Below, in pieces: positions 7,088-63,288 of a stretch of DNA of 64,000 bases. Under the pieces are notes generated by a model, which had not been told where the DNA came from, made no database searches, and saw only the letters and a list, made by a program, of their open reading frames with translations. The stretch spans positions 1 to 64,000 of the forward strand of contig BDDD01000350.1 of the NCBI GenBank assembly GCA_001972305.1, given 5' to 3'. This DNA comes from Cephalotus follicularis. Its lineage: Eukaryota > Streptophyta > Magnoliopsida > Oxalidales > Cephalotaceae. The position numbers and the translations under genes were made by a program. Position 1 is the stretch's first letter. Each line of letters starts with the position of its first letter.

Positions 7088-7374
7088 AGGTCGACTTTTT
7101 ATGAAGAAGTCGATTTCTGAGAGAAAGACGTCGACGTGATTTGAAAAGAGGTCGACGCGTTCTTTAAAACATAGCTGCAAAAACAGTGCATTTTTAAAAA
7201 CATCGATGCGATTTGAAAGTAGTCGACATGTTTCAGTGAAATACAAAGGGATCGACGTTTTTCATAAAGGATCGACGTGATTTTCATAAGCAGTATTTTT
7301 CCAGAAAAGAAGTCGACGCGTTTTAGTAAGGCATAAAAATTTCCAGAAAAGAAGTCGACTCTTTTGTAAAACAG
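7088..7374 (-). promoter_or_regulatory. 21-bp-spaced GTCGAC palindrome array between RNase H tail and envelope-like ORF
   Basis: GTCGAC or one-base variants start at 7090, 7109, 7130, 7151, then 7202, 7222, then 7251, 7271, then 7312 and 7354. The intervals are 19, 21, 21; 20; 20; and 42 (two times 21). The array lies just upstream, in sense, of the envelope-like ORF, where a promoter or other control element for that ORF could sit. A peptide reading exists (repeated RVDFFSG), but the spacing is not always a multiple of three. Role unknown. Confidence 0.6.
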
Positions 7375-7469
7375 AACAGAAAAATCAACCAAAAATAGAA
7401 CAATAACCAATGAAAATCATCACAACAATTATGCATTCAATCTAACATATCATTTAGACATCATAAACA

Positions 7470-7544
7470 TCATTCAATCTCACATAAACCTAATTCTCCT
7501 CTAAACTTAGAAAAAGTGTTCTCATCTAAGGGTTTAGTGAAGAT
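7470..7544 (-). pseudogene. C-terminal tail of Sirevirus (copia) RNase H, fused to gypsy RNase H
   Basis: The minus-strand residues [20 protein letters not shown] are the characteristic end of copia RNase H domains (usual form DIFTKPLxExxFxxxRxxLG). Directly upstream in the same frame the protein is gypsy RNase H ([12 protein letters not shown]). The switch occurs within the nine bases ATCTTCACT (plus-strand 7536-7544), which would encode IFT in either parent. A stop follows at 7470. Downstream lies the rest of the Sirevirus, so the copia part has lost everything upstream of this point. Confidence 0.75.
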
Positions 7545-10548: not shown

Positions 10549-11969
10549 TATAACACCCCCGATGGTGGGAGCCCTTACAGGTCATAATACCAAACTGAAA
10601 CATAACGGAATACCTAAACAAAAGACTGATGCGAAACACATGTGGTGGTCTGAAAACATATCTTATAACAAACTGATATAAAACAGAGTCTGAAAACTTT
10701 AACGAATCATAATTAAAAACAAACCATAATCCGATATCCAAATACTGAAAACATAACCGAAACAAAACCAAAATTTGAAACTATTTTTATTGAAAACTAA
10801 TCTGATTCTACTGGAAAACACAAAGACCAACTCCTAGATGATCCTCTGACAATTGGGTAACTCTCATCACACTTTTCCCCCATGCTTCTGAAAACCTGCC
10901 GCATAGAAACAAAAACGCGGTTGAGCAAACCTCAGTACGGATAAGGAAATAAAACAGTAGACGGTAGACAGAAAAATTTGAACTTTAAATTCAGTAAACT
11001 AACATAGTAAATATTCTTGAAAAGTAAAACAGAATATTTAAAAGCGAGCAGTTGTAAAATCATCATAACTTTGCGAAAACATAACATCATAATTCAAAAC
11101 ATTATCCGATTTCATAATTCCATAACAAAGAATTTCTGACATACATACATATATAGGTGCAAGGCGTTCGCGAGGCCCACATGTTCTGATGGAAAAGTCG
11201 TGTACGGCACTACAAAAACAATCCCAAATACTGAATTTCTGAATTTCTGAATTCTGACAATAACTAGAGTATACTCATACGCCTCAAAAGGATCCATATC
11301 CTACCCTCAGGATACATATTTAAAAGAGACGTCGTAGACCGATCACACCGCCATGGTAGGTGTCATATCCTCCGTGCCAAAGGACATGCCTATGATACCT
11401 CATAGGTAGGGTTTTTCTCTGTATGTTATTATGCTAAAACTTTGTTTAATTGTAAAACAATTCTAAAACATACTTATGTAAACTGTCTCAAGACATATCT
11501 GAAATTATTTAAAAATAATCGTACTTTCATATCAAAATCAAATCAAAATTCGATCTGTATCTGAAATATAACATACTCCCTAAAGTGGAAGCCATGTCCA
11601 AACAATAACACATTTTTGATAACAGAAAATATGCATATCCATATCTTATGTAATAAAATTTATTTTAATAAGACTATCATCATAACGAGAATATCTGTAT
11701 CAAAATATGAGTTTTATTTCTAATAAAACCAGGAACATAAATTCGTTCAATAAAATGTACAAAATCATCAATTAATGAAAGTTTAATCGAAGGAGTACCA
11801 AAGAATGAAGAATCCGTACCTTAGCAGGTTGAAAATCTAAACAAACTAGAATACCAGACAAAAGCACCCTACAAGTGTCCTGAACTCTACCACAAATGAT
11901 ATTAAGACCTAAACATACGAGTCCAAACATCACATAACATAAAAAGATCAAAACATCAAAACTGCCGTA

Positions 11970-12100
11970 AAGCATCGACAGTTTGTTCTTAGGCGTCGAC
12001 GGTTCAGTTGTACAAAAGGACAAAGCGTCGAGCCAAGAGTCGACTGACCAAAGCATAAAACAGTACAAAGCGGCGGTGCTCAAGCAATAAGCGTCGACGG
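11970..12100 (-). promoter_or_regulatory. Palindrome array, distal, in gypsy LTR
   Basis: Core hexamers are at 11974 (ATCGAC) and 11995 (GTCGAC), and at 12072 (GGCGGT) and 12093 (GTCGAC); each pair is exactly 21 bases apart. A further close pair lies at 12027 and 12039 (12 bases). Flanks follow the AAGCG...GGTTT pattern seen in the other arrays. Confidence 0.55.
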
Positions 12101-12859
12101 TTTGCGCCAGACACAGAATACCAATGCAGAAACTAGTTTCAAATCCATGACCAAATCTGATTTTTGATAAACACGATGCATAATTACCAACATGTACGTT
12201 CAGTGACATGTTATATTAATTCAAAAACGCCAGAATAACCCTATGATTTCATGCAAAGTATAAAATACGTTTTGAATTGAAATTTTCAGATATTTAAACA
12301 GTTTATGCAAACCTAACTACAATCCGAATTTCTTTGTGTATAAATCCAAAAATCAGTGACATATACATATATCTACATACGTCAATAGCATGATTTCTTT
12401 GTTTTTAAGCATCATCATTACAAGTTATGCATAAAACCCATGAATGAACATATAAAGATAACAGCAGAAATTTAGTTTCAACAGGCTTCTAAAATCATGC
12501 TCGAAATCAAATTATAGTTAGTTTTAATACAAATTAAAGGGTGATACAGAAACTACATAGTACAAACTACAACTTTCGTTTAGAAATTACCTTCAGAAAA
12601 CGTCAAAATCGATGCAGAAAAATGCGTTCAAAATTGCTGTTCGTGTTTGTAAAAAGTGCAGATAGTTTTCTTTCAAAATAATTCTTAGTCTTTTAAAATA
12701 AAAAAAACGAGTAAAATAAATGATAAAATCGTGCATCTAATGAGTTTTCCTTTCATGCAGATTCAGTTTCAACAAATAAGGGAAATCAGATCAACAAAAA
12801 TGGCAAAAACCTCTCTTTCCCTAAACAGCCCACCGTCCAATCTGGTATGGAAAGCCGAC

Positions 12860-12996
12860 TAAAGCGTCAACTGTTTACTTAAAGTGTCGACGGTTAAGCA
12901 CTGAAATACAAAACGCATCGAAGTCACACGTTTAGGCGTCAACGAGTCACATAGCAGCCAAAGCGTCGGCGGTTCTAATGAGAGCGTCGGCGCTTT
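12860..12996 (-). promoter_or_regulatory. Palindrome array, proximal U3 of gypsy LTR
   Basis: Three pairs: GTCAAC 12866 with GTCGAC 12886 (20 bp), ATCGAA 12917 with GTCAAC 12938 (21 bp), GTCGGC 12965 with GTCGGC 12986 (21 bp). The region is 125-260 bases from the LTR sense start, the position expected for U3 enhancer or promoter sequence. Confidence 0.6.
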
Positions 12997-18780: not shown

Positions 18781-18800
18781 GATTGAGGGGCAAGTGAGAG

Positions 18801-32570: not shown

Positions 32571-33150
32571 TGTAACGCCCCCGATCCGAGTCAACTAAAT
32601 GGTCAAAGCAAATCTTGAGGAGTCGGTGTGTTACGTTGGGTGTGAAACCCGTGCATCCTTTAGCATTATTTTCTAATGCTAACATACATCATCAACTCAT
32701 ACTCTTCACCATAGACATATCACAGGATCTAAATCATGCTATTCAACATCTTCCATAGCCTTGAATTTAAACATTTCATGGAAACATCTTATCTAAAGAT
32801 GTCATAAACTATACATTCTCATACATTTGCATAGGATCAACATATACTGCAGCGGAAAACATTGTCTTATTCCATTTTAAAGCATTTATACAAACACTAT
32901 TGTATAGTACATTTCATTCACAAACTTCTTCTTAAGAGCTCCCTCTAAAGCTCGCATTCTCCATTTAATACTTTCCTGAAAACATTTTATTTGAAAACAA
33001 CTGTAATAACCGCAATTTCAATTCATGTATTTTGTACCCAACGATGAATAAAATGTACTTTTGAGATGTTATGTTGGTTACCTTTTTGAATAGAACAAAG
33101 TTGGAATAAAATTCTTAGATGAAAAATTAAAGAAATAATTTCTGGTGCCA

Positions 33151-33270
33151 AACCGCCGACGCCTAACTCCTTACCATCGACGCTTTAAGCCCTGACACGT
33201 GTCCAAACGCGCAGTTGAAGGCTGAGTTATGACGCACAAACTGCCGACGCCAAAGAGAAAATCGTCGATG
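33151..33270 (+). promoter_or_regulatory. Proximal palindrome array, 5' LTR of D
   Basis: GCCGAC at 33155 pairs with ATCGAC at 33176 (21 bp); GCCGAC at 33243 pairs with GTCGAT at 33264 (21 bp). The same positions in the 3' LTR have GTCGAC where this copy has ATCGAC, so CpG decay is visible between the two LTRs. GCCGAC is itself a DRE/CRT core recognised by plant CBF/DREB factors. Confidence 0.65.
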
Positions 33271-34214
33271 CTTCGCGCGGTGTCAGGAATGTGGTACACG
33301 CCTGTTAGAACATAGCAGTGGCGCCAAATGGATTCCATGAGAGCAAAGTGACCTGTAAACGTGTCAGTGCACACCAGAAGCCTTCACCAGCTGGGTAACA
33401 TGCAAGGATAGAGCCTTGCATGTGACCTAAAAGCCTGCAACCTGCTACGTACCAGAAAACAAAGAAAAGAATAAACGGAAGAGTGCATGAATGAGGGAGA
33501 GAGAAATGTGCATTGAAGGTTGGAGAAATCTGGCGAAATGAAGGACACACTTTTGACCATTTTATACCAACTGTGAGAGGTTGGATGAGAGTGTTAGAAA
33601 ACACTGAGAGATTGAGAGACAACCTGGACAATTGTTGGAAGATTGCTAGAGGTTGAAGGAACTTGAAATTCAAAGGGGGGGAAACTTGGAGCATAACCTG
33701 GAATTGGTAAGTAATCCAAAATTTCTTGATGTTGTTAACGTCGTTAGTAGTGTATTACCCTGATGTTAGCACCACACTGCCACTGTTAACATGATTATGA
33801 AGGATAAAGCATGGAAGAGGAGATTGAATGTTGTATTTGTTAGAAATTAGAAAGTTGAACTTAGAAGTTAATTATTAAACTTCTGATTCAATTTGTTGAT
33901 GTTGTCATGGTTAGATAACTAGCCTCACGTACTGGATTTGTATCTAAAACCTGTTAACATGCAATTAAGTAGATTAATTCTGCAATTTTGGAAGATTGAA
34001 GGAGAGTGAAGAACTTTTGGACCTAGAGAGAGAAATCAATTTGATTTGATTTCGGGACTACTTTAAAGGTAGGGGTTTTGACATGTTTTTGAACATATAA
34101 CATGTATGGTGTGTAGTGATGGTTAATACTTGATTGCCTGTTGAATTGAACAGAGTTTGGAGTGATTTTGTGCATCCCCTGTTTTGAGATTTCTCCTGGA
34201 ATTCTTAAGAACGC

Positions 34215-35502: not shown

Positions 35503-35591
35503 ATATTCCATATATGCTAGCTGGGATAAGTTTCTCGGAAATTAAGTGAAATTGTTTCCTAATGATTATGCCATTCCATATAGGAAACCCA

Positions 35592-36640
35592 ATGGACCTA
35601 CGAAGTTGAAGAAGAGGAAGGCGTAGAGCCGACGAAGGAGTCAATGCACCGCCAGTACGTAAACATGATCCGCCAGCGAATGAAGGAGTGAATATTCCTC
35701 CAGTACAAGATGAGAGAAGTAACTTTGACCGCATGACTGACCTCTTTCAACAACAGATGCAAGCTAATGCGGCGAACATGGAACAGATTCGGCAAATGTA
35801 CGAGGCTAACCGGGCCTATCATCAGGCTCCTGAAGCTTGTCATACTGGTGGATTTGGCCGAGATCTGGAGTGGTTCATGAGACAGAATCCTCCGACATTC
35901 AATGGTGAACTGAATGCTACTGTGGCCGAGCAATGGATTAGAGATTTGGAGAAAATATTTGCTGCCCTCGAATGTACTGATGAGCGGAAACTCAACTTTG
36001 TTGCATACCGCTTGTGGGCCGAGGTTACTTATTGGTGGGAAAAGGACTGAAGCAAAGTGGGAATCTCATGGACTTGACAGGACTTGGGGCAGATTTCAGT
36101 CTGAGTTCCTTACCACTTATGTGCCACAGATAGAACGTGACCGGAGAGAGACCGAACTGATGGAGTTACGTCAAGGGGATATGACGGTAGCTCAGTACCA
36201 GTCTAGATTTTTGGAGCTGCCAAGACATACACCTTCTCTTGTGAAGGGTGAATCGTGAATGATCCGAAGGTTTCTGAAAGGCCTTCGACCTGACATCAGA
36301 TCTAAACTATTAATGTTGTAGCTAACCTCTTTTGTAGATATTGCTGAGAGGGCGATGATTCTGGAAGCAGATGCGAATGAAAGGAGAGCAGAACAGACTC
36401 GTACTAATCAATTGAGGGCTGCACAGTCACATGGGCAAGAGAGTAATAATCCTGCTAAGTCAACTAAGTCTGACAACAAAGGTCAAGGAGGTTCTCGACG
36501 CAGAAATTCATGACCAAGGACTCCTAACCAAAATGGTCAACAGAATTCAGGTGGATGTGCTTTTTGTAGTTGTCCATGATGAGACCGAATACTGGAAAAA
36601 GATGGGGAAATGCTTGAGGTGTGGTTCACAAGAACATATG
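35592..36640 (+). pseudogene. gag of element D
   Basis: The probable start ATG at 35592 is followed at its sixth codon by a TGA (a likely CGA to TGA change). Recognisable retrotransposon gag residues follow: FMRQNPPTFNGEL, WIRDLEKIFAALEC, and WWEKD near 36040. An extra base near 36045 shifts the frame. The next frame continues LDRTWGRFQSEF and YQSRFLEL to a TGA at 36256-36258, then further broken pieces. The zinc knuckle [15 protein letters not shown] near 36610 is already in the pol frame, with its last Cys replaced by Tyr. Encodes the particle protein; not functional in this copy. Confidence 0.85.
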
Positions 36641-39600
36641 CTGAATAGTTATCCAATGATGAGAGATCAAGCACGCGGCCAACAGGGAAGTGCTAGTGCT
36701 AGTGGTAGCGTTGCGGCTACTCAACCACGGAAGGATACCGGGAAAGGGATTGTGAAAGGTAGGGTCTACACCTTATCTAAAGATGATGTGCCAGAATCTA
36801 CTACCGTTGTGGGAGGTACTGTTTATATATCTGGCATAATAGCTCATGTACTGATTGACCCTGGTGAGACACATTCATTCATCGCATCTGAATTTGCTCA
36901 CAATTTGCATGGTGTTACATCTAGATTACCTTATGTATTGGAGGTGAATACTCCTGCGGGTACTTGTCTTCTATCCGATACTATAATGAAAGATTATGAA
37001 ATCATGGTAGCTGGAATTCAGTTATCTGCTGACTTGATAGTATTACCTATCCGGGATTTTGATGTGATCTTTGGGATGGACTGGCTGTATGCTCATCATG
37101 CTTGTGTTGATTGCTACAACAAGATGATGACATTTTATCTTCAAGATGGGACTGAGTGGAAGTTTATCGGGGAGAAGTATGTTTCTGCTCCGATCATTTC
37201 ATATACTCGAGCACAGAAGTATCTCAAGCAGGGATACGAAGGCTATTTGGCGTATGTGATTGATCATATGAAAGGTACGCCTAGTATTGAACAAGTGCCT
37301 GTTGTATGTGAATTTCCTGATGTATTTCCAGATGATCTCACTTCGTTGCCACCGGAGAGAGATATAGAGTTCAGCATCGAACTATTACCTGGGACTGCTC
37401 CTACATCCAAAGCACCATACCGAATGGCTCCTGCCGAACTGAAGGAGTTGAAGGTTCAATTGCAGGATTACCTTTATAAGGGCTTTATCAGACCGAGTGT
37501 ATCACCTTGGGGAGCACCGGTTCTGTTTGTGAAAAAGAAGGATGGATCAATGCGACTATGCATCGATTACAGGCTGCTAAATCCGGTGACTGTGAAGAAC
37601 AAGTATCCTCTGCCACATATTGAGGAGTTGTTCGACCAATTACAAGGCTCAACTGTATTCTCTAAACTTGATCGGAGAACAGGTTATCATCAGTTGAGGA
37701 TTTGAGAAGGTGATGTGGAAAAGACCGCATTTTGAACTAGATATGGGCATTACGAATTTCCGATATTGCCGTTTGGTTTGACAAATGCTCCTGCAGCCTT
37801 TATGTGTCTGATGAACAAAGTGTTCTAACCCTATCTTGACCAGTTTGTCGTTATATGCCTAGATGACATCCTGATTTATTCGAAGAGCATTGAGGAACAC
37901 ATGCGGCACTTCAGAATTGTATTGCAGACACTACGGAAGGAACAACTATACGCCAAATTTAGCAAGTGCGAATTTTGGCTGGATCATGTGACTTTCCTAG
38001 GTCACATAGTGTCGAGTGAAGGATTGTCGGTGGATCCTTCAAAGATAGAAAGTATTGTTGATTGGTCCCAACCGATGAACGTTACTGAGGTCTGTAGTTT
38101 CTTGGGATTGGCTGGCTACTACCGAAGGTTCATCAAGGGGTTTTCGAAACTCGCCACACCGTTGACACAGCTGACTTAGAAGAAGTCAAGTTTTGTGTGG
38201 GATGATGCTTGTGAGGCAACTTTCCAAGAGTTGAAGAGTCGGTTGATTTCGGCTCCAGTGTTGGCATTACCTGAGGGTAATGAGGGTTTTACTGTCTATA
38301 CTGATGCTTCTGGGACGGGATTGGGATGCGTTCTTATGCAACATGGTAGGGTGATTGCATATGCATCAAGGAAGTTAAAGCCGTACGAGGAAAATTATCC
38401 CGTACACGATCTTGAGTTGGTAGCCATAGTGTTTGCTTTGCAGAAATGGAGGCACTACCTCTATGGTGCTCAATTTGAGATCTTTACTGACCATAAAAAC
38501 TTAACGTATCTATTTTCTCAGAAGGAGCTCAACATGAGACAAAGACGATGGGTGGAGTTCTTCAATGATTACAACTGCAACATTCAATACAACCTGGGGA
38601 AGGGGAATGTAGTGGCAGATGCGCTGAGTTGCAAGGCAATGATTGCTGGAGCAATGGTTTCACAGTGGAAGCTATTGGAGGAATTTCAGAGATGGAATCC
38701 GTTCATGGTTTCCCGTGGAGTTATAGTGGCAAGTCTGAGAGCACAACCAGAACTTCTGGAGCATATTCTGACCGCTCAGTATAGCGATTCTGTGTTATGG
38801 AGTATTCGCGAGAACCTAGACACTGATTCTGAGTTCTCCATTCATATTGATGGCATACTGTGGTTCCGAGGAAGGATATGTGTTCTGAATGACGAGGGCA
38901 TCAGAAATGAACTACTGCAACAAGCTCACAAGTCAAAATACAGTGTTCACCCTGGAAGTTCCAAGATGTGGCATGACATGAAAGATAACTACTGGTGGAG
39001 TGGAATGAAAAGAGAGATTGTTGAATACGTAGAAAGATGTTTGACTTGTCAGAGAGTGAAGGCTAAAAATCAGAGACCTGCAGGACTGCTACAATCGCTA
39101 CCAGTGGTTGAGTGTAAATGGGAGCATGTAACCATGGACTTCGTGTCGGGACTACCGAGGTCACGGAATCAGCATGAAGCAGTGTGGGTTGTAGTGGACA
39201 GACTCACTAAGTCTGCTCACTTTCTTCCAATGAACGTGACGTATTCTATCGAGAAGCTTGCTCGACTGTATATCCAGGAAATAGTGAGATTACATGGGGT
39301 GCCGGTCAGTATTGTTTGTGACCGAGATCCTAGATTTACTTCAAGGTTCTGGAAGAAGTTCCAATCAGCAATGGGAACAACCTTGAACTTTAGCACTACA
39401 TTCCACCCACAGACTGACGGACAGTCCGAGTGTACTATTCAGACTCTGGTGGATATGCTACGAGCTTGCATGATTGATTTTGCTGGGAGTTGGGAAGATC
39501 ATCTGGCACTGATTGAGTTCTCCTACAACAACAGTTTTCACACCAGTATTGGAATGGCTCCCTATGAAGCATTGTATGGGAGAAAATGCAGATCGCCTAT

Positions 39601-40177
39601 CTGCTGGGATGAGGTATGGGAGAGACAAGTGCTAGGACCTGACTTGGTACAAGACACGACAGAAAAAGTGGAAATAATAAAGAAGAGACTGCTAGCTACA
39701 CAAAGTTGGCAGAAGAGTTACGCCGATAGCAAAAGGAGAAAGCTAGAATTCGAGAAGGGGGATCATGTTTTCCTGAAGATCTCGCCTTCGAATGGGATAC
39801 ACCGTTTTGGACTCAAAGGGAAGTTGACACCGAGGTATATTGGGCCTTATGAGATACTGGAAAGAGTGGGGGACGTAGCATATCAGATTGCACTACCGCC
39901 TAGTTTGTCGGATGTGCATAACGTATTTCATGTCTCTATGTTACAGAAATACGTGCCTGACCCATCTCACATATTGAGCTACGACCCTGGATTCATCAGT
40001 CCTAAATTTTCATATGAAGAGAGACCGACGAGGATAGTGGATCGAATGGAGAAGGTGCTAAGGAACAAGACCATTCCTATGGTAAAGGTACTGTGGCATT
40101 TTCACAGAGCAGAGGAAGCTACGTGGGAGCGTCAGGACGAAATGATGGAGACATTTCCCCACTTGTTCGGGATGTAA
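36431..40177 (+). pseudogene. pol of element D: protease, RT, RNase H, integrase, chromodomain
   Basis: One frame holds all enzymes. Protease: [10 protein letters not shown] (Asp-Ser/Thr-Gly changed to Asp-Pro-Gly) and [28 protein letters not shown], then stops at 37703-37705, about 37733, about 37827 and 38177; the catalytic motif reads LDDILIYS. RNase [16 protein letters not shown] and FTDHKNLTYLF. The last 660 codons (38195-40177) are open and contain integrase HHCC (HPGSSKMW, CLTCQRVK), the catalytic D-D-E (TMDF, CDRDPRFTS, GQSECTIQ) and a chromodomain from about residue 595 (FSYEERPTRIVD, VLWHFHRAEEATWERQDEM). RNase H and integrase look undamaged while protease and RT are not. Confidence 0.93.
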
Positions 40178-40364
40178 GGGCTAAATTCTAGGGCGAATTT
40201 TCTTTAATGAGGGGCGAATGTAATAACCACAATTTCAATTCATGTATTTTGTACCCAACGATGAATAAAATGTACTTTTGCGATGTTATGTTGGTTTCCT
40301 TTTTTAATACAACGAAGTTGGAATAAAATTCTTAGATGAAAATTTAAAGAAATAATTTCTGGTG

Positions 40365-40490
40365 CCAAACCGCCGACGCCTAATTCCTTACCGTCGACGC
40401 TTTGAGCCCTGACACGTGTACAAACGTGCAGTTGAAGGCTGAGTTATGACGCACAAACCACTGACGCCAGAGGGAAAACCGTCGACACTT
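40365..40490 (+). promoter_or_regulatory. Proximal palindrome array, 3' LTR of D
   Basis: GCCGAC 40372 and GTCGAC 40393; ACTGAC 40460 and GTCGAC 40481. Both intervals are 21 bases, identical to the 5' LTR although individual cores have mutated differently. Confidence 0.65.
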
Positions 40491-41074
40491 TGCACAGTGT
40501 CAGGAATGTGGTACACGCCTCTTAGAACACAGTAGAAGCGCCAAATGGATTCCATGCGAGCTAAGTGACCTGTAAACGTGTCAACGCACACCAGCAGCCT
40601 TCACGAGCTGGGTAACATGCAAGGATAGAGCCTTGCATGTGACCTAAAAACCTGCAACCTGCAACCTGCCAGAAAACAAAGAAAAGAACAAAAGGAAGAG
40701 TGCATGCACGAGGCAGAGAGAAATGTGCATTCAAGGTTGGAGAAATCTGGCGAAATGAAGGACACACTTTTGTCCTTTTTATACCAACTGTGTGAGGTTG
40801 GATGAGAGTGTTAGAAAACACTGAGAGATTGAGAGACAACCTGGACAATTGTTGGAAGATTGCTAGAGGTTGAAGGAACTTATAGAGAGAGAAATCAATT
40901 TGATTTGATTTCGGGACTACTTTAAAGGTAGGGGTTTTGACATGTTTTTGAACATATAACATGTATGGTGTGTAGTGATGGTTAATACTTGATTGCTTGT
41001 TGAATTGAACTGAGTTTGGAGTGATTTTTCGCATCCCCTGTTTTGAGATTGCTCCTGGAATTCGTAAGAACGCC

Positions 41075-41235
41075 AGAAGCGCCGACGCTTAAGTTAAGAC
41101 CGTCGACGCTTTTGTGTGGAAAATGCCTGTTAAGGCTTACAATGTCGACGCTTAAGCTTTGATCATGCGTGTAGTGTCAACGCTTAGACAAAAACCGTCG
41201 ACGCTTACACAGAAACTGTCGACGCTTTAGAACAG
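41075..41235 (+). promoter_or_regulatory. Distal palindrome array, 3' LTR of D
   Basis: GCCGAC 41081, GTCGAC 41102 (21 bases), GTCGAC 41144, GTCAAC 41176 (32), GTCGAC 41197 (21), GTCGAC 41218 (21). Spacing is unchanged from the 5' LTR. Confidence 0.65.
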
Positions 41236-43559
41236 AAAAAATAGAAATGTTCAGATTGATTGATTGACTTGATTGTGGTTGCAATTATCCTTGATCTGCT
41301 ATATTGTAACTATTGTTACTGTTATTTAATGAAATTACTACTGTTATATATATGTATTCAAGGATTCTACCAACTTAATGCTTAAAGCGTAATTAATGAT
41401 TTTTAGCAACGGATTTCTAATAGAAAATCTTATCGTATACAACTGCTATTACCCTCATAATAGAGGCACTGTTACTGTGTAGTTCTCCCAAGAGAACCAC
41501 TTACGGAACTGTTATATTTTCTAAAAAATGAAAACTACTATAATATTTCATATTATAGATATATGTAATATTGTTACTGAATTGATCGTCTATGCTATTG
41601 TCGTTACTCGAGTGATAGGAGACATCACTGGCTACGGAGGTGGTCCTATGTGCCAGGAGTTGGCTAGAGTATCCCCCCAAACTGTCTGCAATGCAGAACT
41701 TGATTGTTAAACTGCCCGCTAATGCCAGTAGTAACTGACATGATCTATCATCTTCAGAGTGTAGGGTGATAGATAGGTGGTGCACAGTTGGTGCTAGGAG
41801 TTAGCGACATGTGACACCCAAACCACTGTACTGATTGATTGTACCCTTGTGCGGTATTCTTGCATTGTACTGTCTATGGCCACTTGGCATGATTGCGTAT
41901 ATATTGGAATACTATATATATATATGTCATTTCATTTAAACTATCATGAATATTTACATTTATAGATTCAATTACATGCTTTATCTTCATACTTAGCCAA
42001 GTGAGGACAACGACTAACCCCCTATAATTTTAGATTAAGTGAAGGCATTCGGGAGGTGCTGTTGGAGCTTTTGGAGAGTTTTTATCTGCTTAAGGTTGTT
42101 ATTCTTATGATTTGTATTTGTAATGAACGGTTCTCACTCCATTGTTGTTTTACCTTTGCTTATGCATAAGGATAATTTGATGGATTGTATACGCACGTAG
42201 TATGGGCTGCGTGCGGATGACTTATAATCCAGTTTTAAATGCTTCCGCTTATATTGTTGAACTGTTAATTGGAATACTGGATTATTTTTACTTATTCCTG
42301 ATATCACCACATATGTTGTCTAATGTAATGGAATAACGAGGTGTGACAACAACATAGAAAGGAATGAGCTCAAAATAGCTCAGTAAGGTTTTCATTGTAA
42401 AACACATTTCATCATGTCACTTTTCTAGTTAAACTCATAACTAGAACATTGCGTACGACACATCTCTTTTCTAGTAAGAATTCGTAACTAGAACATTTTG
42501 TAAAAACATAACATAGCAGTCATAAAACCTTAATGAACCCTTTTCACCTCTTCACCAAGGTATTGTGCACTCCCCAATTACTATCCTTACATCACATGCA
42601 TGTCTGTGAGGATCTTGCCCCATTAACATTAATCCATCTCGGATTCATTCCCCTTAGATCGCAATCCAAGGGTGGTTCATTCATCATTTCATAAAACATT
42701 TCCTTAATACTTTGAGTGATCAGCTCAAAGCATTCATAAACCTCATTGTATAACATTCTTTCACAATTCATAAACATTTCTCTTCATTTGAGTAATTAAC
42801 TCAAAAGCTTTCATAAAACAGCTTTGCAGAGCATTTCTAAAACTAATAATTCATATATAAATAAGCATTTTCAGAGAAAACTTAAAACATAAACATTAAA
42901 GTAGACATCTTCTCGAAGTCAGAAAGCTCAAGTTCATAATATTTGTTGAGGATCGAATCCGTTATGAATTTTAAAAGTGGCTGGTTCCATATGAAAATAG
43001 GGCATGAGCATTAAAATGAAACATGGATTCTCATCAAGAATTCCACATAATTTCAAGATACATAAAACATAACAATTAAAGTAGACATCTGAAAGTTTCT
43101 AAAACATTAGACAATTCGAAATTTTATCAAGAATTGAGAAATATATGAATAAAACAATCTGCTGCATAATTTGAATCAAAACAGGGGAAGCTTTGATAAA
43201 AATGGGTCTAGATTTCCTTACTTTACTTTGGATTTCCTTTTTCTACTTCTCCTTTTGAACGTTCCACTTCACTTTCAGCAGAAGCACTTTCTTTCTCAGC
43301 CAAAATGGTTGCACTTAGCTCTCAAATGCCCATAAATAGGCAAATTTCTTGGGGAGCAAGTCTCCTCCCTCTCTCTCCTATGAGTCACCTCTATATAGTT
43401 GCGCATGTGCTTAATTTCCACCAAGCAATTGGTGACACTTGTCATTGCAACATAAACTATCTGGACACTTTAAACCCTGGCATGACACTTGTCCTTAAAT
43501 TAATGATTTTAACTCACAAAAGGACAAAAAGTCAGACTTTGGCAACTAGTCTGCAGCTC

Positions 43560-43895
43560 AAAGCGTCGGCGCTTTCTTCTAAGCGTCGCTGCTTATGGGC
43601 TTGTTCTCAGTTCTTCAACTTTCTCCTCGACTAAAGCGCTAACACTTTCCTACAAAGCGTCACCGCATTATGTATCGTCCAGGTCAACATTAAAGCCTAA
43701 CTTCAAAGCATCGAAGCTTACATTTAGGGCATCGTCGGTTGCACCAAGCTTAGCCACTTTCATCCAAGCGTCGTCAGTTAAAGGAATTTGTCCAAGTTAA
43801 AAACTCTCTGTTTTTAATCGGCGCCAAGAGGGCTCTAGGCGTCGATGGTTACCTTCAAAGCGTCGCCGCTTTGCGTCACACCGTCGGCGCTTTAG
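43560..43895 (-). promoter_or_regulatory. Palindrome array in solo LTR C
   Basis: Core positions: 43565/43585 (20 bases), 43638/43659 (21), 43710/43731 (21), then 43770, and 43841/43862/43883 (21 and 21). Cores vary (GTCGGC, GTCGCC, GTCGAT, GTCACC) but the flanking AAAGC...GCTTT pattern is kept. Confidence 0.6.
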
Positions 43896-44480: not shown

Positions 44481-45369
44481 AACATTTGAAAACATATATA
44501 TATATATTTACTCGATATATATAACTATCCTTTTTCAATCCTTTTCAAGTAAATTCAATGTATCATAAAATACTTGAAAGTAATACATTTTAAAATGTAA
44601 AACCAGCAATTCGAACCACATTCAAATACACGATAATACTCATTTTCGCATAACAGTTTCTCAATCCCTTGAAACCGTTTTCACAATCCTTTTGGAAAAC
44701 ATTACATTTTCACATAACAATGATTTTATTAAACCATTTACATACTTCCCAAAAAGAGGAAACAATTTAGAAATCAAGTGATAACTCAATTAGCAATCCA
44801 ACTCACAATTGTATGCAATGCAAACATATGCTCAAAATGCAACCGGGCTCTATTCGGGTCAACATCTCATCCCTTCGACATCGACGCTCAAGGTATGGAC
44901 CATTAAGCGTCAGCGCTTATTCCCTTGGCGTCGACGCTTTGAGGTAGGAAACTCTTGCGTCAACGCTACACGTGTCCATTATCACACACAACGAATCATG
45001 GCATCGACGTTTTCTCTAAGCGTTGACGTTTATGGAAAAAACAGAGCTCATTCTCCGTATGATAGTCCACAGCGTTGACGCTTCTTTCCTAAGCGTCGAC
45101 GGTTAAACGAACCAAAACACGGTTCCTTCAACACGTCTCAAAACCAATAGAATTCAAAGCATACAACACATGCCATTCAATCCGCAGTCATTGTAAAACG
45201 CAATATCCATAACATGTTAACTATTCATAGCAACCCTAACGCCAATCACATGATGCACAACCCATGCATTTCATCAAATGAACACTCATTACAATTAAAC
45301 TCAAATATGCATGTATAAATTGCCTATAATTACCCCTACCTCTGATTCCAAGTTAGGAATTGCAGCAGC
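44481..45369 (-). other. B, sequence between minisatellite and U3, with a palindrome array
   Basis: AT-rich non-coding DNA. At 44880-45110 it carries cores such as ATCGAC 44882, GTCAGC, GTCGAC and GTTGAC with intervals of 21 and also 19 and 28-29 bases, flanked by AAGCG and CGCTT. Frames of up to 89 codons here overlap the array and are not convincing. Confidence 0.5.
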
Positions 45370-46768
45370 AACGGCACAGTCGAGCTGTGGGTTCAATTGC
45401 AGAACGTTCCCAATCACCGTTGAACCGAATCTAGTTCTTGTTGATTGATCAATTCCTCATTGCCAAATCCAATTGCCACTCACGCATAGCACATACAACA
45501 CATTTCATTACGATCAACGCACAGAATTCAACGTCATCATTACCGGAGTTCCGGCTAGATTCTGGCCAACTCACCCAACTTGTGAAACACCTATAAATAG
45601 GTTCCACATGGAATGGTCTACTCCAAACCGCACAACACTCGCCTTGACTCGGCGGCGAACACCGTGTCATGGCCAGCAGTGAGTTCGACTTGCTAAGTTA
45701 ACTCACCGGACTTCAACAGGTCCGATCAACACCCAAAAATGCCATGCAACCATCAATTCTATACCCTACTGCCCACAACTCGCCGAGACTCGACGCAAAA
45801 CGCACGGTCATAGGTGGCGGTGAGTCAACTCAAGTCGACTCAGTCAATTCATTTTGGCTGATTCAGGCCGAGAAATGACACACCAGTGGTCAAAATGGAT
45901 AGAGCGGACCTTCTAGGCGAAAACCCACCCTATCCGCGATGCTAACAGCATCGGAAAACGCAAGGCTAGAGCACACAGTGACGGGAAAGAAGAGAAGAAA
46001 AGAGAGGAAGGAGAAGAAGAAGGAAGAGATTACTGGCAGGTTGAGGGCCTGGGTTGCTCGCCGTCCTCCCCTGGTCCAGCGGCTGGCTCCAGCATCGTCT
46101 CCGGTGCTCTCTCTCTTTCTCTCTCCCGCACTCTCTCCCGCTCTCTCGCCTCTGTCTCTCTTCTTTGCACAGGCGTACTATGCACTCGTGTCTCTTTCTT
46201 TTTCTTTTGTTAATTGGTTCTCCCCCTTTCTTTTTTGGTATTTATCAACAAAGTATTAAGGCCTAGGTCCTGTTTTTTCTGCGAATTGCGTTATTAATTA
46301 ATCCAGCCGTCACAAAAATAACCGTAATAATAATGCGAACACTGGCCTTTGCTGTCGCGCATTAAAAATAGGCTTAATTAACCGTTTTGGGCAACATAAT
46401 TGTGGCTTCAATACGAAATGCCTTGAACATTTCCTTATCATTTCTCTATGTAGTGGTAGGTCTGGCGCGCACGTTATGCTGACAGACTGCATGGCAGTCG
46501 ACTGCCTTCCCACAACAGTCGACTACTTCTGCCAATAGTCCAGCCGGCTATTTCTCTCAACAATCGGCTAGTTCTGTTAAGGCTCCAGTAGATTGTTTCT
46601 CCCTACAGTTGGCTGCTCCACTGTTTCTTCGCACCATAACTTTCCTTAAAACTTTCCATTCAAGCCTTAACATCAAACAGTGGAAAAATACATAATTCTC
46701 ATTAACTTAACGCATAATTTACATCGGGAATTACAATATTACATTTGACAAAAATCCCGGGCTTTACA
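45370..46768 (-). repeat. U3-like start of element B, homologous to 3640-4768
   Basis: In sense it starts TGTAAAGCCCGGG at 46768. Shared with the LTR at 582-4768: the AACAGGTCCGATCAACACCC block (45715; counterpart 3897), GATAGAGC near 45900, the CT-rich run (46100-46200), and the AATAATGCGAACA..CGCGCATTAAAA block (46328; counterpart 4526). This is why B and the 582-4768 LTR must share a U3 although their other ends differ. Confidence 0.7.
46490..46615 (-). promoter_or_regulatory. CAGTCGACTG-type palindrome array at the start of B
   Basis: GTCGAC at 46497 and 46518 (21 bases), then GCCGGC 46543 and ATCGGC 46563 (20), then GTAGAT 46588 and GTTGGC 46609 (21). The flanks are CA...TG instead of GC...GC, so the same spacing occurs around a different palindrome. 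It lies 155-275 bases from the sense start, as in the other LTRs. Confidence 0.55.
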
Positions 46769-46773
46769 CATAA

Positions 46774-48574
46774 TCTCAAAAATAACTTATGACATTTTGA
46801 TAAAAAAAACATCATACTTTCTTTGAAATCATCATAAACTATAACGATCATAGTAAATGTATTTATAAAACATTATCATAGTACATTTCACAGCGAAAAA
46901 TATTAACTTATTACATCAAAAGTAGTTTATACAAAACATTAATGTATAACATAATTCCCTTTAAAAAGCTTCATTTATGAGCACCTTCTAAAGCTCGAAA
47001 TCTCTTCGGTTATCCATTTCCTGGAATATTTTATTTAAAAAAACAAAACATTGAAAGGAATGAGCTTAAATAGCCTGGTAAGGGTTTCAAAATAAAGATT
47101 TCATCACATTCATTCTTTTCTGTTCATATCTCATGAAACAAAATATTTCTTTTCTTTTTCTAATCAGATCGCATGAATCAGAACATTTCATAAATAACTG
47201 ATGGGTCGTATAAACTTAAATTTCCCAAATAAAACCTTTTGCTTCACCGGGGCATTGTGCACTCCCTAATTACTATCCTTAAATCAAATGCATGTCCGTG
47301 AGCACTCACCGCTCATTTAATCCTCCTCGGATTAATCCCCCTTGGATCACAACCCAAGAGTTGTTCATCTTAGTTTATTATCTTTTCATAAAATCATTTA
47401 TTTACACTTTGAGTGATTAGCTCAAGGTATTCGTAAAAATAAATTCGTACAACATTTATAAATACTTAGCTAATGATAAAATTATAGAAAAAATTTCAAC
47501 AATTTCAGAATGATAAAATCATAATCGCATTGAAAATAATAGCAGAACATGAGCAATAATATTAAACATAGAATTTCATCAAGAATTTAGCAGAAATTCG
47601 AAATACGTAAAACATAACAATTTGATGCATAATTTCAAGAAATAACATAAATTAGTTTGGCATAAAAATTCTCCAAGAATAACATAAAGAATTTTGGCAT
47701 AAAAATATAAAGTAAAATACTTGAGAAAAGTGAGTAAAAATTTCCTTACATTGCTTTAATCTCCTTCTTTCCTTTTTTACACTGAAGTAATTTCTACACC
47801 AAAATTTTAGTAAAATTCTCCTTCTTTTCCCTTCTCTCTTATTCTCTCCCGTTCTCTCTTTTTCTTTCTCTATTCTTTCACTCTTTCTTCTCTTTTTCAG
47901 TAAAATTCTTTTGGCATAACCGTTTTACTTACCCACGTATTTATAGGGAAGTTAATCTACAGACTTCTTATCTTCGTGCGTCATCTGGTTACGTCAGCCA
48001 CCTTACGCTGCCCAAGTTGTTAATTTCCTTCCTCCAGTTAAACGACAAATGTCCTCTTTTAAGTTAAAGTAATCATAATCAGCCAAAATATCTTAAGTTC
48101 TTCATCCATCTTTTGACAAGTGTCAATAATTACTATAATTAATTTACTAAACGACAAAAAACGAGATAAGTGGTGATGCTTTCACACTTTGTTATTTAAA
48201 AAGCGTCGACGCTTTAACCTCAATGCGCTGCCGCTTTTACCCTAAGCGTCTCCAGTTAAGCGTTTTTAACTAAGGAAATAAGGCTTAAAAGCGTCGCCGC
48301 TTTTTCCATTACAGTATAACAAACCGTCGACGCTGTAGTTAATAAGTTTGGTGTGTTTTTGGTACGAAATTAGCCGACACTTTGTATATACTGAAGAATA
48401 ACCATCGATGCTTTAACATGAGATAGTCAACGCTTTCATCACCACGTAAAGCACACGTGACGCATAAACATCTTACAATGCAAAACTTATTACTCCATGG
48501 CATTCAACCCAATATTCTAAAGCAAACACATTTCCATAAACAATAATTTTTAACGAAATTTTCCGGTCACTACA
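46774..48574 (-). repeat. LTR A, main part right of insertion B
   Basis: It continues 25913-26043 after removal of B and contains the family landmarks (GGGGCATTGTGCACTCCC near 47241, the CCTTGGATCACAACCCAAG hairpin near 47339). It ends TTCCGGTCACTACA at 48574. A nearly matching end segment recurs at 50590-50896. Total LTR length without B is about 1.93 kb. Confidence 0.75.
48200..48440 (-). promoter_or_regulatory. Palindrome array in LTR A
   Basis: It includes a near-perfect AAGCGTCGACGCTTT (GTCGAC at 48205), then GCTGCC 48227 (22 bases) and GTCTCC 48248 (21). GTCGCC 48293 and GTCGAC 48326 follow, then weaker ATCGAT and GTCAAC copies to 48430. It lies 140-375 bases from the sense start at 48574. 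Confidence 0.6.
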
Positions 48575-50589: not shown

Positions 50590-50896
50590 TTAACGAAGGA
50601 AATAAGGCTTAAAAGCATCACCGCTTACTCCATTACACTATAACCAACCATCGATGCTTTAGTTAATTAGTTTGGTGTGTATTTGGTACAAAATTAGTCA
50701 ACGCTTTGTATATATTGAAGACTAACCGTCAAAGCTTTAACACGAGATAGTCGACAGTTTCATCACCACATAACGTACACGTGATGTGTAACATCGCATA
50801 ATGCAAAACTTCTTACTCCATGTGATCAACCCAATATTCTAAAGCAAGCACATTTCCATGATCAATAATTTTTCAAAAAAGTTTCCGATCACTACA
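50590..50896 (-). repeat. U3 end fragment of the A-family LTR
   Basis: Closely similar to 48262-48574, including AAGGAAATAAGGCTTAAAAGC and the terminal CGATCACTACA. It carries decayed palindromes (GTCAAAG, GTCGACAG) at 50610-50765. In sense it starts at 50896, directly against copia pol, and forms the right border of the 25 kb nest. Confidence 0.75.
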
Positions 50897-57249: not shown

Positions 57250-57264
57250 AAATTGTGTTTGTAG

Positions 57265-58831: not shown

Positions 58832-59069
58832 TGTAATGACCCAAGTTTCCATGTAAGATATTAATTATGAAAATTGATTGCTATTGTGTAAATTGGCCAA
58901 TAGTTTAAGGGACCCGTTGTATGACCCTACGCTCGGGGAGTACGGGGGTTCCGCTCCCCGGTGAGCGGACGGGGGGTCCCGCTGCCCGGACAGCGGACGG
59001 GGGTTCAGGGGTCAGCGCCCCCAGAAGAAAATTTTATTTGGATATTTGTTTTGGATGAATGTCATGCTG

Positions 59070-59332
59070 AAAACGTCGATCTAAAAGGCTAAAGTTGACA
59101 AAACTGTCTAAAGCGCCGACGGTTTTATTTAAAGCGTCGACGCTTTGGGCAACGGTCGATGTCCTAATTTTAGACGTCGACGCGTTGAAGTTAAATATGT
59201 CAGTTGACTTGGACAAAGACTTAAAGCGTCGACTCTTTGTAAGAAAGCGTCAGCGCTTTAGTCGGGATAGAGGTAAAAAACTCAGGAAAATGCCGTAACC
59301 GCCGACGCTTAGAAGGAAAACGTCGACGCTTT
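59070..59332 (+). promoter_or_regulatory. Palindrome array in solo LTR E
   Basis: Cores at 59075 and 59094 (19 bases); 59115 and 59136 (21); 59155 and 59176 (21); 59228 and 59249 (21); 59301 and 59322 (21). The copy around 59136 is the perfect 16-base palindrome AAAGCGTCGACGCTTT. The array lies 240-500 bases from the LTR start. Confidence 0.7.
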
Positions 59333-60274
59333 GAGCTACAGACAGAATTGCAAATATAACTTTTTGGCATTTTTTGAGTAAAAATCTTTAATTTTGGACA
59401 CGTGGCAGGCCAGGGAAGGATGATATGAAGTGTTACCTGATAATCTAACAGGTGTAAACACCTGGATTGGCTGAATCTTGTCACATGGGCATCCAAGAGA
59501 GAGAATTGAGTATGTGAGAGGGGGAAAGGCTTGCCTCACAAGCTATCCTTCTATTTAATGGCTAAGAGTGTTGAAACTCAGTCATTTTGGCTGAGAAAGA
59601 AAGTGTTCCTGCTGATAGTGAAGTGAAGAATTCATGGAGAGCAAAAGAGAAAGGAATTCTAAAGCAAAAGTAAGGAAATTCTATACCCATTCTCTACAAA
59701 GTATCCCCTGTTTTGCTTTCAATTATGCAGCAGATTGTTCAATTGATATCTTATTCAATTCTTCATGAAATTTTTGAATGGTTGGATGTTCTGGAAACTT
59801 TAAGATGTCCTCTTTAAATGTTATGCTTTGCATGTTTCAAGATTCTATCGATTTCTTGATGAAAATCAATGTTTTAAATTCATGTTCAGGTACTGTTTTA
59901 TTCCTGGATTATGCAGCAACTTCTTTAAATCATATCTTGCTGGTTTCTTAATGAAAAATCAAATGGTTGGATGTTTTGGAAACCTAAAGATGTCCTATTT
60001 AACTTTTAATTTTTATGTATCTCGAAATTATGTCAAATTCTTGATGAGAATCAATTATTCGTTTTACTACTCATGCCCTGTTTTCTTATGGAATTAGCCA
60101 CTTTCAAATATTCATAGTGGAATCAATTCTCAACCAATTATTATGATATTGAGCTTTCTGAATTCTTAAAGATGTCTAGTTTAATGTTTATGTTTTGAGT
60201 TTTCTCTGAAAATGCTTATTTCTATATGAATTATTAATTTTTGTAAAGTTATGCAAAACTGATTTTATGAACTT

Positions 60275-60413
60275 ATTTGAGTCAATTACTCAAATGAAGA
60301 GAAAAGTTTATGAATTGTGAAAGAGATGTTATGAAATGATTTTTATGATTGCTTTGAGCTGATCACTCAAAGTAAATGATGAATGAACCGCCCTTGGTTT
60401 GTGATCCAAGGGG
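60275..60413 (+). other. Conserved hairpin cluster in LTR E
   Basis: Three short hairpins stand in a row: ATTTGAG...CTCAAAT (60275-60295), CTTTGAG...CTCAAAG (60352-60372) and CCCTTGG...CCAAGGG (60391-60413). Equivalent hairpins occur in the same order, inverted, in the LTRs at 582-4768 (both duplicates), C (42655-42810) and A (near 47340-47440). Loops differ while arms are largely kept, suggesting RNA structure in the transcript. Confidence 0.6.
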
Positions 60414-61102
60414 AATGGAGCGAAATGCTCAAAGTTAATGGAGCAAAAAGTGCTCACGGACATGCATGTGATGTAAGGATAGTAGTCGGGGAGTGCACAA
60501 TGCCCCGGTGAAGCGGTGTAAAGGGTTCATTAAGGTTTTTATGAATTTCATGTTTTTGAAATGATCTAATTATGATATTAACTAGAAAAGTATTATGTTT
60601 TATGAAATGTTCTAGTTATATGTATTGACTAGAAAATTATTATGATGAAATGTGTTTAAACACCTTACTGAGCTATTTTGAGCTCATTCCTTTCAATGTT
60701 GTTTTCAAATAAAATGTTTTCAGGAAATGAAAGAATGAAGATTACGAGCTTAGAGGAAGCTTTTAAGAAGGAGTTTTGTGAAACAAAGGCTATGCGATGA
60801 TATTCGCATTAATGTTTTGTTATGTAATAAAAATAAAGTTTTTCCGCTGTAATATGTGTTTATGTAGAAGAATGATCCTGTGTAATGTAGACCAACGATA
60901 TGGTTAAGACATCTTCATATATGATGATTATGTATAAAGTTTGAACTTAAGATTATGTATGATGTTACGAGACATGAGTTTATGATGTAGTGTACTTTTA
61001 TAGAATAGTACCAAAAGATGTAACATTTCGCACCCAACGTAACGGAACCGATCCTCGGATTTCACTTTGAGCTATTAACGAGCTCGGGTCGGGGTCGTTA
61101 CA

Positions 61103-62231
61103 AATGAGGCCAAAAAGGACCAAAATTGGATCAATGCCATGCAAGAGGAATTAAACCAATTCGAAAGAAATAAAGTATGAGATCTAGTTCCTAAACCTAG
61201 TGAACAAAACATAATCAGCACAAAATGGGTATTTCATAACAAAGTAGATGATCAAGGAATTGGGATTAGAAATAAAGCTAGGCTAGTTGCTAAGGGATAT
61301 TCCCAAGAAGAGGGAATTGTCCTTGATGAGTTGTATGCACCCGTAGCTAGACTAGAATCTATACGTATGTTACTTGCATATGCATCGTTTAAGGATTTCA
61401 CCCTTTTTCAAATGGATGTTAAGAGTCCATTTTTAAACGGTGTAATAAATGAGGAAGTTTATGTGGAACAACCTCCCGGGTTTGAAAACCCTCATTTTCC
61501 TAACCATGTCTTTAAACTCTCAAAAGCGTTATATGATTTGAAACAAGCTCCTAGAGCTTGGTATGAAAAGTTAAGTGGTTATTTACTTGAAAATAGCTTT
61601 AAAAAAGGAACAATCGATATTAGTGTTTTCACAAAAACTTTTAATAAAGAAATCTTAATTGTCCAAGTCTATGTTGATGATATAATTTTTGGGTCTACTA
61701 ATAAAAATTTGTGCAAGAGTTTTGCTAAGATCATGCAGGAAGAATTTGAAATGAGCATGATGGGTGAGCTAAACTATTTCCTTGGACTTGAAGTCAAACA
61801 ACTAGAAGAAGGAATATTCATCAACCAATCAAAGTATGTCAAGGACCTACTTAAAAGATTTGGGATGGAGAACGCCAAAAAGAGTAAGACCCCCATGAGC
61901 ACAACTACTAAACTTGATAAAGATGAGCAAGGTAAGTCTATTGATCAAAAACTTTATCGAAGTATGATAGGTTCATTACTTTATTTAATGGCTAGTAGGT
62001 CGGATATGCTTATGTGCTAGATTTCAAGCATGTCCTAAGGAATCCCACTTGCATGCAGTAAAAAGAATCTTTAAGTATCTAGCGTATACACCCTCTTTAG
62101 GACTATTGTATCCTAGGAACTCGTCTTTTGACCTACACACATACTCCGATGCTGACTTTGGAGGATACAAAGTAGATAGAAAAAGTACTAGTGGCACGTG
62201 TCAATTCTTAGGCAATATGCTTATTTCTTGG
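61103..62231 (+). pseudogene. Sirevirus RT and partial RNase H
   Basis: Continues the Sirevirus after LTR E: WINAMQEELNQFERNKV, a TGA near 61178, [35 protein letters not shown], intact catalytic [31 protein letters not shown] small deletion near 62010 shifts the frame (TAG at 62018-62020). RNase H continues from about 62022 with YSDADFGGYKVDRKSTSG and stops at 62231, where the next element's LTR begins. The RNase H end, any envelope-like ORF and the 3' LTR are displaced beyond the window or lost. Confidence 0.92.
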
Positions 62232-63288
62232 TGTTGACATTTATGTCTCGACCCTAGTTTTGATGATAACATATTTGTGTTTAACAAAGTTTCTTGATGT
62301 GCATGAAAACCATGGAATGCGCAAAACAGCACAAGAATTCTGCAGAAACAGGGCAAACCGTTGATGCTCAGAAATAAAGCGTCAGCGCTTTGAGAGACAA
62401 TCGAGACAATGAACAAAGCGTCTACCGGTGAAGCACTTTGAGAAGAAGAACAAATACTCAAACCGTCGACGCCCAAGATTCAAGCGTCTGCGCTTTGACA
62501 CAAAGCGTCAGCACCTTGAGACAAAGCGTCTGCTGAGTAAACCAGTGCGCTCAATTGGAATTCAATTTGGCCCAAGTGTCGATGCCCAATCCTAAGTGTC
62601 AGCGCTTTGAGCTGCCGGTCGACTCTTGAACACAGAACGCCTGCGCTTTGACTCGACAAATTCAAATTGAGATACCTAACGGTCACATAAGCGTCGACGC
62701 TTTGAAGGAGACAGTCGACGCTTTGCACGCAGAACAGGAGGAGAGAAACACAAGAGATATCAAACTACAAAAGAATTAAAAGAAATCATACAACAAGCAC
62801 TCAAATTCAAAGCTCATCTCAAAAAGCTTTCATTTTATATCTTAGCCCATCTTTGTTCTCAATTATATTGAGCGAATTTATCTTGTAAAATCCAACCTTG
62901 TGAGAGGTTTAGATCAAAACATTATCTTATCTTCTTTGATTGTAATAGGGGAGTGAACGCCAAGAGAAATTAGGGAGTGAACCCAAGAGAATTGTAAGTG
63001 GTTGAGTTCAATCACAAAGGTGTACCAAATAGCACCCGAAATTGTATTCGGAGACTAGTGGAAACTCAAGGAGATCCTTGGGAAAAGTGGACGTAGGGAA
63101 GAGTTACGCCGAACCACACTAAAATAGTGTTTGCAATCTCTCTAACTCTCTCTCTTTGAATTGTTGTTTAAATTGCTATTGCTTGATTTACTTGTTCATT
63201 GTCTTTGATTAGACTAAAATTGCGAAAAGTTTAATTTATCTTTAGAAACTACAATTCACCCCTCCCCTCCTCCCTTGTAGTTTATTCA
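62232..63288 (+). repeat. 5' LTR of a Sirevirus-like element K
   Basis: 1057 bp, TGTTGACATTTATGTCTCG to TAGTTTATTCA, followed two bases later by a PBS, so this is the 5' LTR of an element running right. It starts inside the RNase H frame of the preceding Sirevirus; the left flank is CTTGG. It shares the GTTTTGATGATAACA start motif with LTRs at 4897 and 25805. CT-rich runs near 63130 and 63260 are usual in these LTRs. Confidence 0.88.
62355..62725 (+). promoter_or_regulatory. Longest palindrome array, U3 of element K
   Basis: Cores: 62360/62381 (21 bases); 62465/62486/62507/62528 (21, 21, 21); 62578/62598/62618/62639 (20, 20, 21); 62693/62714 (21). Core hexamers include GTCGAC, GTCTGC, GTCAGC and GTTGAT, nearly all with GC or AAGC before and GCTTTGA after. 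The array fills about 370 of the first 500 bases of the LTR. Confidence 0.7.

Follow-up and report, generated by a model that had tools for sequence, protein, structure and literature searches.

The genome of Cephalotus follicularis contains numerous arrays of a short palindrome centred on GTCGAC, whose copies recur most often at exactly 21 bp from each other in the long terminal repeats (LTRs) of both Ty3/gypsy and copia retrotransposons. The analysis started from positions 1 to 64,000 of contig BDDD01000350.1 (assembly GCA_001972305.1), hereafter called the window, i.e., the whole stretch of 64,000 nucleotides; loci and stretches elsewhere in the genome carry L numbers. The palindrome occurs in two classes that obey the same spacing rule and rarely meet within one array, and related LTRs have changed from one class to the other. 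Judged from sequence, the arrays probably serve different retrotransposon lineages as a platform on which a DNA-binding protein docks as a dimer, in versions of two specificities, with promoter activation by host factors as the likeliest function.

Within the window, 64 16-mers differ by at most four mismatches from the palindrome AAAGCGTCGACGCTTT, versus a mean of approximately 1.6 in 50 dinucleotide shuffles. Measured from core to core, 17 pairs of these sites are 21 bp apart, with 1, 2, and 2 pairs at 19, 20, and 22 bp and none at 18, 23, or 24 bp. The sample outside the window consists of 20 stretches of 10 kb (bases 100001-110000 of 20 chosen contigs, an arbitrary and not a random set); it contains 69 such 16-mers, where 100 permuted palindromes average 6.8, and its pairs are distributed similarly (16 at 21 bp, 5 at 19, 2 at 20, 1 each at 18 and 24, and 0 at 22 and 23). 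The entire 1.577-Gb genome encompasses 3,552 exact copies of AAAGCGTCGACGCTTT, versus 5 of the reversed control. Genome-wide pairs, counted for exact cores only, amount to 392 at 21 bp, 61 summed over 16-20 bp, and 312 summed over 22-52 bp; among 50 places listed for the last range, 32 lie at 50-52 bp and 2 at 22 bp. The site is a dyad-symmetric palindrome, as the symmetric 10-mers GCGTCGACGC and CAGTCGACTG occur 14 and 37 times in 274 kb, with 0.02 and 0.11 expected, respectively. Scanning with two position matrices, described below, yields 14 arrays in the window, including two that repeat another array in the 3' LTR of the same element, and exactly 21 bp separate the sites in 27 of the 65 neighbour gaps. 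The initial annotation of this DNA had proposed a palindrome with exact 21-bp spacing; the pattern is confirmed in the window, the sample stretches, and the genome, and is more extensive than first noted. Most of the arrays that it had listed stand as well, except for the pair 25633/25654, where one weak site is left even at a lax threshold; the sites at 7109 and 62528 fall below the threshold, while their neighbours hold.

A first matrix mixed two kinds of palindromes, which resulted in an apparent mirror covariation beside GTCGAC, and two matrices were trained instead. Class I corresponds to GCGTCGACGC (C-GTCGAC-G) and class II to CAGTCGACTG or, more generally, CAGTCGRCTG (A-GTCGRC-T), so that the classes differ mainly beside the core. 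Neighbour gaps of class II in the window and the sample equal 21 in 66 of 127 cases and 20 in a further 26. Genome-wide counts of class II pairs cover distances of 21 bp and 10-20 bp: CAGTCGRCTG pairs at 21 bp number 55,829 versus 160 for the reversed control (forward-strand count, as forward and reverse counts overlap in this class), and those at 10-20 bp number 22,530 versus 88, mostly at 20 and in a few cases at 19 bp among those listed. Exact core pairs of class I at 21 bp occur 1,915 times versus 3 in the control. Mixed pairs are scarce: neighbours in the window and the sample comprise 133 I-I, 127 II-II, and 5 I-II pairs, none of these five at 21 bp. No exact I-II pair at 21 bp exists in the genome, and 5 were found at 20-50 bp in 1.58 Gb. 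Of 45 arrays, 41 consist of a single class, whereas the maximum over 2,000 label permutations is 9. Around exact class I copies, four loci (L001-L004) were inspected, and all of their sites belong to class I. The second class obeying the same 21-bp rule and the exclusion between the classes are new here; the initial annotation had overlooked them, as it had the class changes between related LTRs and the location of one array in a linker, both described below. As a separate observation, stretch L020 (4081-9313) contains two 2.6-kb repeats of one family approximately 72 bp apart, as if their internal DNA had been nearly all lost, and in the arrays within these repeats a block of class II sites comes first and one of class I sites second.

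The excess at 21 bp persists when related copies are removed, as the initial annotation had expected of a genuine signal. The arrays of the window and the sample (264 kb in total) were grouped by the homology of their flanks, with sites masked and single linkage applied. The 50 arrays found with the first matrix form 18 flank clusters; when one array per cluster is retained, 41 of 112 gaps equal 21 (40 when ties are broken otherwise), with 10 at 20 bp and 6 each at 19 and 22. The two class matrices give 45 arrays in 15 clusters, and 51 of 112 gaps equal 21. The spacers left between palindromes at 21 bp are diverse, 98 of them representing 73 different 5-mers.

Placement of the sites is strongly biased. 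In eight elements with an LTR pair, 119 sites lie in 29.0 kb of LTR versus 3 in 31.5 kb of internal DNA, an approximately 40-fold higher density in LTRs, in line with the LTR bias that the initial annotation had expected; in this count, some LTR ends were extended by eye, and the repeat pairs of L015, L021, and L022 were left out. Taking BLAST-paired repeats as they stand and adding L015, L021, and L022 results in 114 sites in 29.3 kb of LTR, or 3.9 per kb, this recount omitting satellite L019 and some short or weak pairs in the window, L020, and L022. (L019, positions 1-10000, is for most of its length a tandem satellite with a unit of approximately 163 bp, as estimated from self-alignment offsets, and bears no arrays.) The elements behind these figures are gypsy or unclassified, and none of them is a copia. 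Gypsy domains are present in four array-bearing elements of the eight, namely the window element 33002-42348 and those in L006, L008, and L026; L009 has gypsy domains but no sites, and the remaining elements are unclassified. A chromodomain (PF00385, E-value 1.7e-6) beside SH3_Tf2-1 identifies the L026 element as a chromovirus, while the profile scan reported no chromodomain in the window gypsy element. One Sirevirus-type copia LTR carries an array, too, which supports the earlier statement that gypsy and copia LTRs share the motif. In three LTRs, the observed/expected ratio of CpG amounts to 0.71-0.91 when the sites are counted and to 0.51-0.73 when they are left out; as the sites contain CpG by definition, the drop shows only that they add to the ratio.

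Related LTRs have changed class. In four cases, arrays of opposite classes are found beside homologous flanks: window 40367 (I) and L006 1753 (II), 145 bp at 83% identity; L005 497 (I) and L006 1753 (II), 197 bp at 79%; L008 6514 (II) and L022 8715 (I), 111 bp at 82%; and window 44875 (I) and L013 8069 (II), 143 bp at 73%. Gypsy LTRs with two arrays approximately 1 kb apart have both in the same class (I and I in the window and L005, II and II in L006 and L008). Homology of the outer LTR parts is clear, with 73% across 886 columns and 81% across the first 62. In an alignment of the window and L006 LTRs, four sites of the two occupy identical columns (238, 259, 1490, and 1511). This alignment (56% overall) is poor around the arrays, where palindromes tend to be drawn onto one another, and it accommodates replacement of whole arrays and site-by-site change equally.

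The features of the window are collected in the table below. The U3 location assigned to all arrays by the initial annotation holds in part: arrays do lie in the gypsy LTRs and in the copia LTR, whereas array 7090-7364 belongs to the linker of a Sirevirus-type copia element, and U3 is a tentative label for the gypsy array approximately 1.2 kb into a 2.5-kb LTR. The linker placement relies mainly on the homologous copy in L024. In the window, the array precedes an extra open reading frame (ORF), followed by runs resembling polypurine tracts (PPT) and by an LTR start; the layout of L024 is alike, with the RVT_2 frame reaching up to the array-bearing block, then the array, then an ORF matching PF20167. 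Part of the copia LTR and its surroundings (62819-63300) matches L024 9996-9537 at 80% identity, and beyond this match L024 encodes a copia gag (PF14223, zf-CCHC); a weak TATA word, TATATC, follows the array of this LTR at 62836. Possible Sirevirus marks of the copia elements comprise several PPT-like runs and a polyC block, both read by eye, and the copia gag with zf-CCHC, whereas a coiled coil is guessed from sub-cut-off matches to bZIP_1, and no whole two-LTR element was encountered. Behind the copia LTR of L025, N letters at approximately 298-6490 (6,188 in this stretch), a gap or masked sequence, keep that LTR from being linked to the copia gag and pol farther on. Two further repeats of the window are a tandem duplication of approximately 1.3 kb at 907-3492 (98.8% identical over 1,246 columns) and a G/C-rich 28-bp tandem repeat at 58944-59003, just ahead of the solo-LTR array.

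Table. Retrotransposon features and palindrome arrays of the window (PBS, primer-binding site; TSD, target-site duplication; RT, reverse transcriptase)
Feature	Position	Strand	Details
Extra ORF behind array 7090-7364	5551..6993	-	split into 6535-6993 and 5551-6534, with a PF20167 match in the latter piece
Array in linker of Sirevirus-type copia	7090..7364	-	matrix assigns 7246-7364 to class I; weaker sites at 7125 and 7146
Array	11969..12103		class I in 4 of 5 sites
Class I array	12861..12996		4 or 5 sites, depending on the matrix
Ty3/gypsy element	33002..42348	+	5' LTR 33002-35487, 3' LTR 40219-42348, paired blocks 93-94% alike; PBS TGGTATTAGAGC at 35491 and 5-bp TSD ACAAC, read by eye; RVP_2, RVT_1 (sub-cut-off), RNase H, integrase, SH3_Tf2-1
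Class I array	33150..33274		gypsy 5' LTR, ~150 bp from LTR start; 4 sites, gaps 21, 67, 21
Class I array	34217..34369		same 5' LTR, ~1.2 kb from start; 6 sites, gaps 21, 42, 32, 21, 21
Class I array	40367..40491		gypsy 3' LTR copy of array 33150
Class I array	41076..41228		gypsy 3' LTR copy of array 34217
Class I array	43560..43893		truncated inverted relative of the solo LTR (~42344-44085)
Class I array	44875..45105		7 sites; flank related to L020 paired repeat
Class II array	46492..46618		5 sites
Class I array	48167..48436		7 sites, one exact 16-mer at 48200
Partial copy of array 48167	50612..50760		class I in 3 of 4 sites
Solo LTR	58832..61102	+	TG...CA, TSD AATGA, ends read by eye; inserted in a copia element (integrase on one side, RVT_2 (RT) on the other)
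Class I array	59110..59332		in solo LTR; 7 sites, gaps 21, 40, 52, 21, 52, 21
Sirevirus-type copia LTR	62232..63288	+	TGTTGAC...TTATTCA, polyC-rich block near end, by eye; Sirevirus-like PBS junction, PBS TGGTATCAGAGC at 63291; interrupts another copia in its RNase H region
Class I array	62355..62724		9-10 sites; ~123-490 bp from start of the 1,057-bp copia LTR

The putative protein would read the GTCGAC-centred palindrome as two half-sites, i.e., as a dimer, and would prefer neighbouring palindromes that are two turns of the helix apart and so share a face of the DNA; 21 and 20 bp correspond to about two turns. The two specificities may be set mainly by the bases adjacent to the core (C-GTCGAC-G versus A-GTCGRC-T), and each class would have a reader of its own, either a distinct protein or a distinct member of a single protein family. 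Each retrotransposon lineage would then use one class, with a switch in some related LTRs, and the likeliest output would be activation of the LTR promoter by factors of the host. Among sites of one class, variation in one half-site is largely independent of that in the other, as would be expected of two protein subunits with separate tolerance for change, but not of base pairing. Some observations weigh against this interpretation. Mirror identity at half-site index 2 exceeds chance in three of four tests (p 0.008-0.029), and LTR sites are entirely absent from two of the eight elements (L007 and L009) and from the repeat pairs of L015, L021, and L022. TATA-like words follow the arrays at variable distances in three LTRs (approximately 23, 112, and 289 bp). 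Besides, the flank clusters rest on single linkage, with at least one link arising from adjacent arrays with a common flank. Phasing of the longer gaps by 10 bp is inconsistent, with p 0.003 in a first analysis and p 0.72 in a stricter one that retained a single array from each cluster (p 0.006 when all arrays were counted, despite their mutual dependence); as the two analyses disagree, such phasing is not accepted as established.

Some of these features could also be explained without a DNA-binding protein. The palindromes might act as folded RNA, in a hairpin or cruciform that feeds or escapes small-RNA silencing, as has been proposed for maize Sireviruses, the palindromic clusters of which attract small RNAs (Bousios 2016, as described in PMC10760457). 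One array is indeed predicted to fold strongly as RNA (z -6.9), whereas two others fold ordinarily (z -1.8 and 0.1), and little mirror covariation is observed within a class; a hairpin as the main reason for the arrays was rejected on these grounds. As such a structure also predicts neither the fixed 21-bp spacing nor class exclusion, this explanation appears very unlikely. An equally slight chance is given to neutral tandem duplication of a functionless 21-bp unit within LTRs, spread by transposition. LTR copies multiply any content, and in the window Tandem Repeats Finder recognizes three such arrays, short and with a 21-bp unit; however, the spacers diverge while the palindromes persist (44 of 53 spacers are distinct in class I and 41 of 66 in class II), and successive spacers are scarcely more alike than those of different clusters (3.39 versus 3.76 mismatches of 5, based on 18 successive cases). 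Pure duplication was rejected on account of this divergence. Moreover, a 21-bp gap is present in most arrays (41 of 45) and in most flank clusters (13 of 15), and the genome-wide exclusion between classes needs more than duplication.

Alternatively, the reader could be encoded by the elements themselves, the arrays being targets of a retrotransposon protein with a VANC-like anti-silencing role, such as the product of the PF20167 ORF, while other elements free-ride with copies of the targets. In both copies seen (the window and L024), the array lies directly before this ORF, and two relatives of its product, P0123 and P0124 (445 aa), have a basic N-terminus that, by eye, resembles a nuclear localization signal; they look nuclear and not envelope-like. 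VANC targets are likewise non-coding arrays of short motifs that are unlike between related elements, and VANC6 also acts on the unrelated AT9TSD1, according to PMC5735166. On the other hand, no PF20167 match was found among the longer ORFs, those tested, of the array-bearing gypsy elements 33002-42348 and L026. No DNA-binding domain was found in the PF20167 extra-ORF protein, and its structure prediction is uninformative (mean predicted local distance difference test score, pLDDT, 33.8). The family is annotated as 'putative plant transposon protein'; its relatives number 432, and all 120 listed come from Cephalotus follicularis, and it is known from an Athila element, too (PMC11728184), which weighs against this explanation. 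Overall, an element-encoded reader seems improbable, if less so than RNA folding or neutral duplication, and the PF20167 ORF may be taken as a lead towards it and no more. Host factors that bind the arrays as dimers remain the preferred explanation.

The initial annotation had interpreted the arrays as a shared enhancer class recruiting a dimeric or cooperative factor, possibly of the AP2/ERF family. A shared class that is concentrated in LTRs and spaced by two turns is supported and fits a dimeric or cooperative factor, while a binder of the AP2/ERF (CBF/DREB) type would be a speculative candidate. Barley HvCBF2 reportedly prefers GTCGAC, and cores of the form RCCGAC or GTCGAC occur in many sites here; the arrays resemble the C-repeat/dehydration-responsive element (CRT/DRE) in the core only. 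The DRE is not known as a palindrome, nor is it known to follow a 21-bp array rule.

The arrays appear nearest to the RM boxes of Sireviruses and, in the logic of class change, similar to the target arrays of VANC proteins. As described in PMC2829016, RM boxes are many-copy palindromes in the upper part of the LTR, tied there to CpG islands; more of them lie in the linker, ahead of the extra ORF, and different elements have different palindromes. The sites studied here are also dyad-symmetric; at least eight copies in the upper LTR half before the TATA occur in copia LTR 62232-63288 (a single LTR with a weak TATA), and linker copies precede the extra ORF in array 7090-7364 and in L024, an ORF that presumably corresponds to the ENV of that paper. 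In Vitis, the RM palindrome CGGTCGACCG has the GTCGAC core as well, flanked by yet another base, the third kind (PMC2829016). Nevertheless, RM boxes were reported there as Sirevirus-specific and with a CGG-CCG core except in Tnd-1, whereas the cores here (GCGTCGACGC and CAGTCGRCTG) lack CGG-CCG, as does Tnd-1, and the arrays extend to Ty3/gypsy LTRs (window 33002-42348, L006, L008, and L026). Fixed 21-bp spacing and exclusive classes were not met in the available sections of PMC2829016. VANC arrays share with those of Cephalotus the short motifs in non-coding DNA, the variant types, and the rapid difference between related elements. The VANC21 motif, YAGTATTAY, is in contrast not palindromic and is arrayed in one orientation, the VANDAL elements are DNA transposons, and the reader protein is known (PMC5735166 and PMC10398659), whereas the arrays of this genome are retrotransposon palindromes with a putative reader. 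In a farther-reaching scenario, gypsy and copia elements would be split between two exclusive codes read by two sister dimers, LTRs would swap whole arrays, and readers of host or element origin would co-evolve with them in a VANC-like arms race across superfamilies; this is conceivable, though rather doubtful.

Work on LTR promoters usually proceeds one family at a time; in this genome, unrelated families have a precise cis code in common, with a rule for spacing and two versions that are incompatible. The code is short and abundant, and it comes with natural switch controls, i.e., related flanks with arrays of opposite class, which makes it testable what drives the promoters of plant retrotransposons and at what pace this changes.

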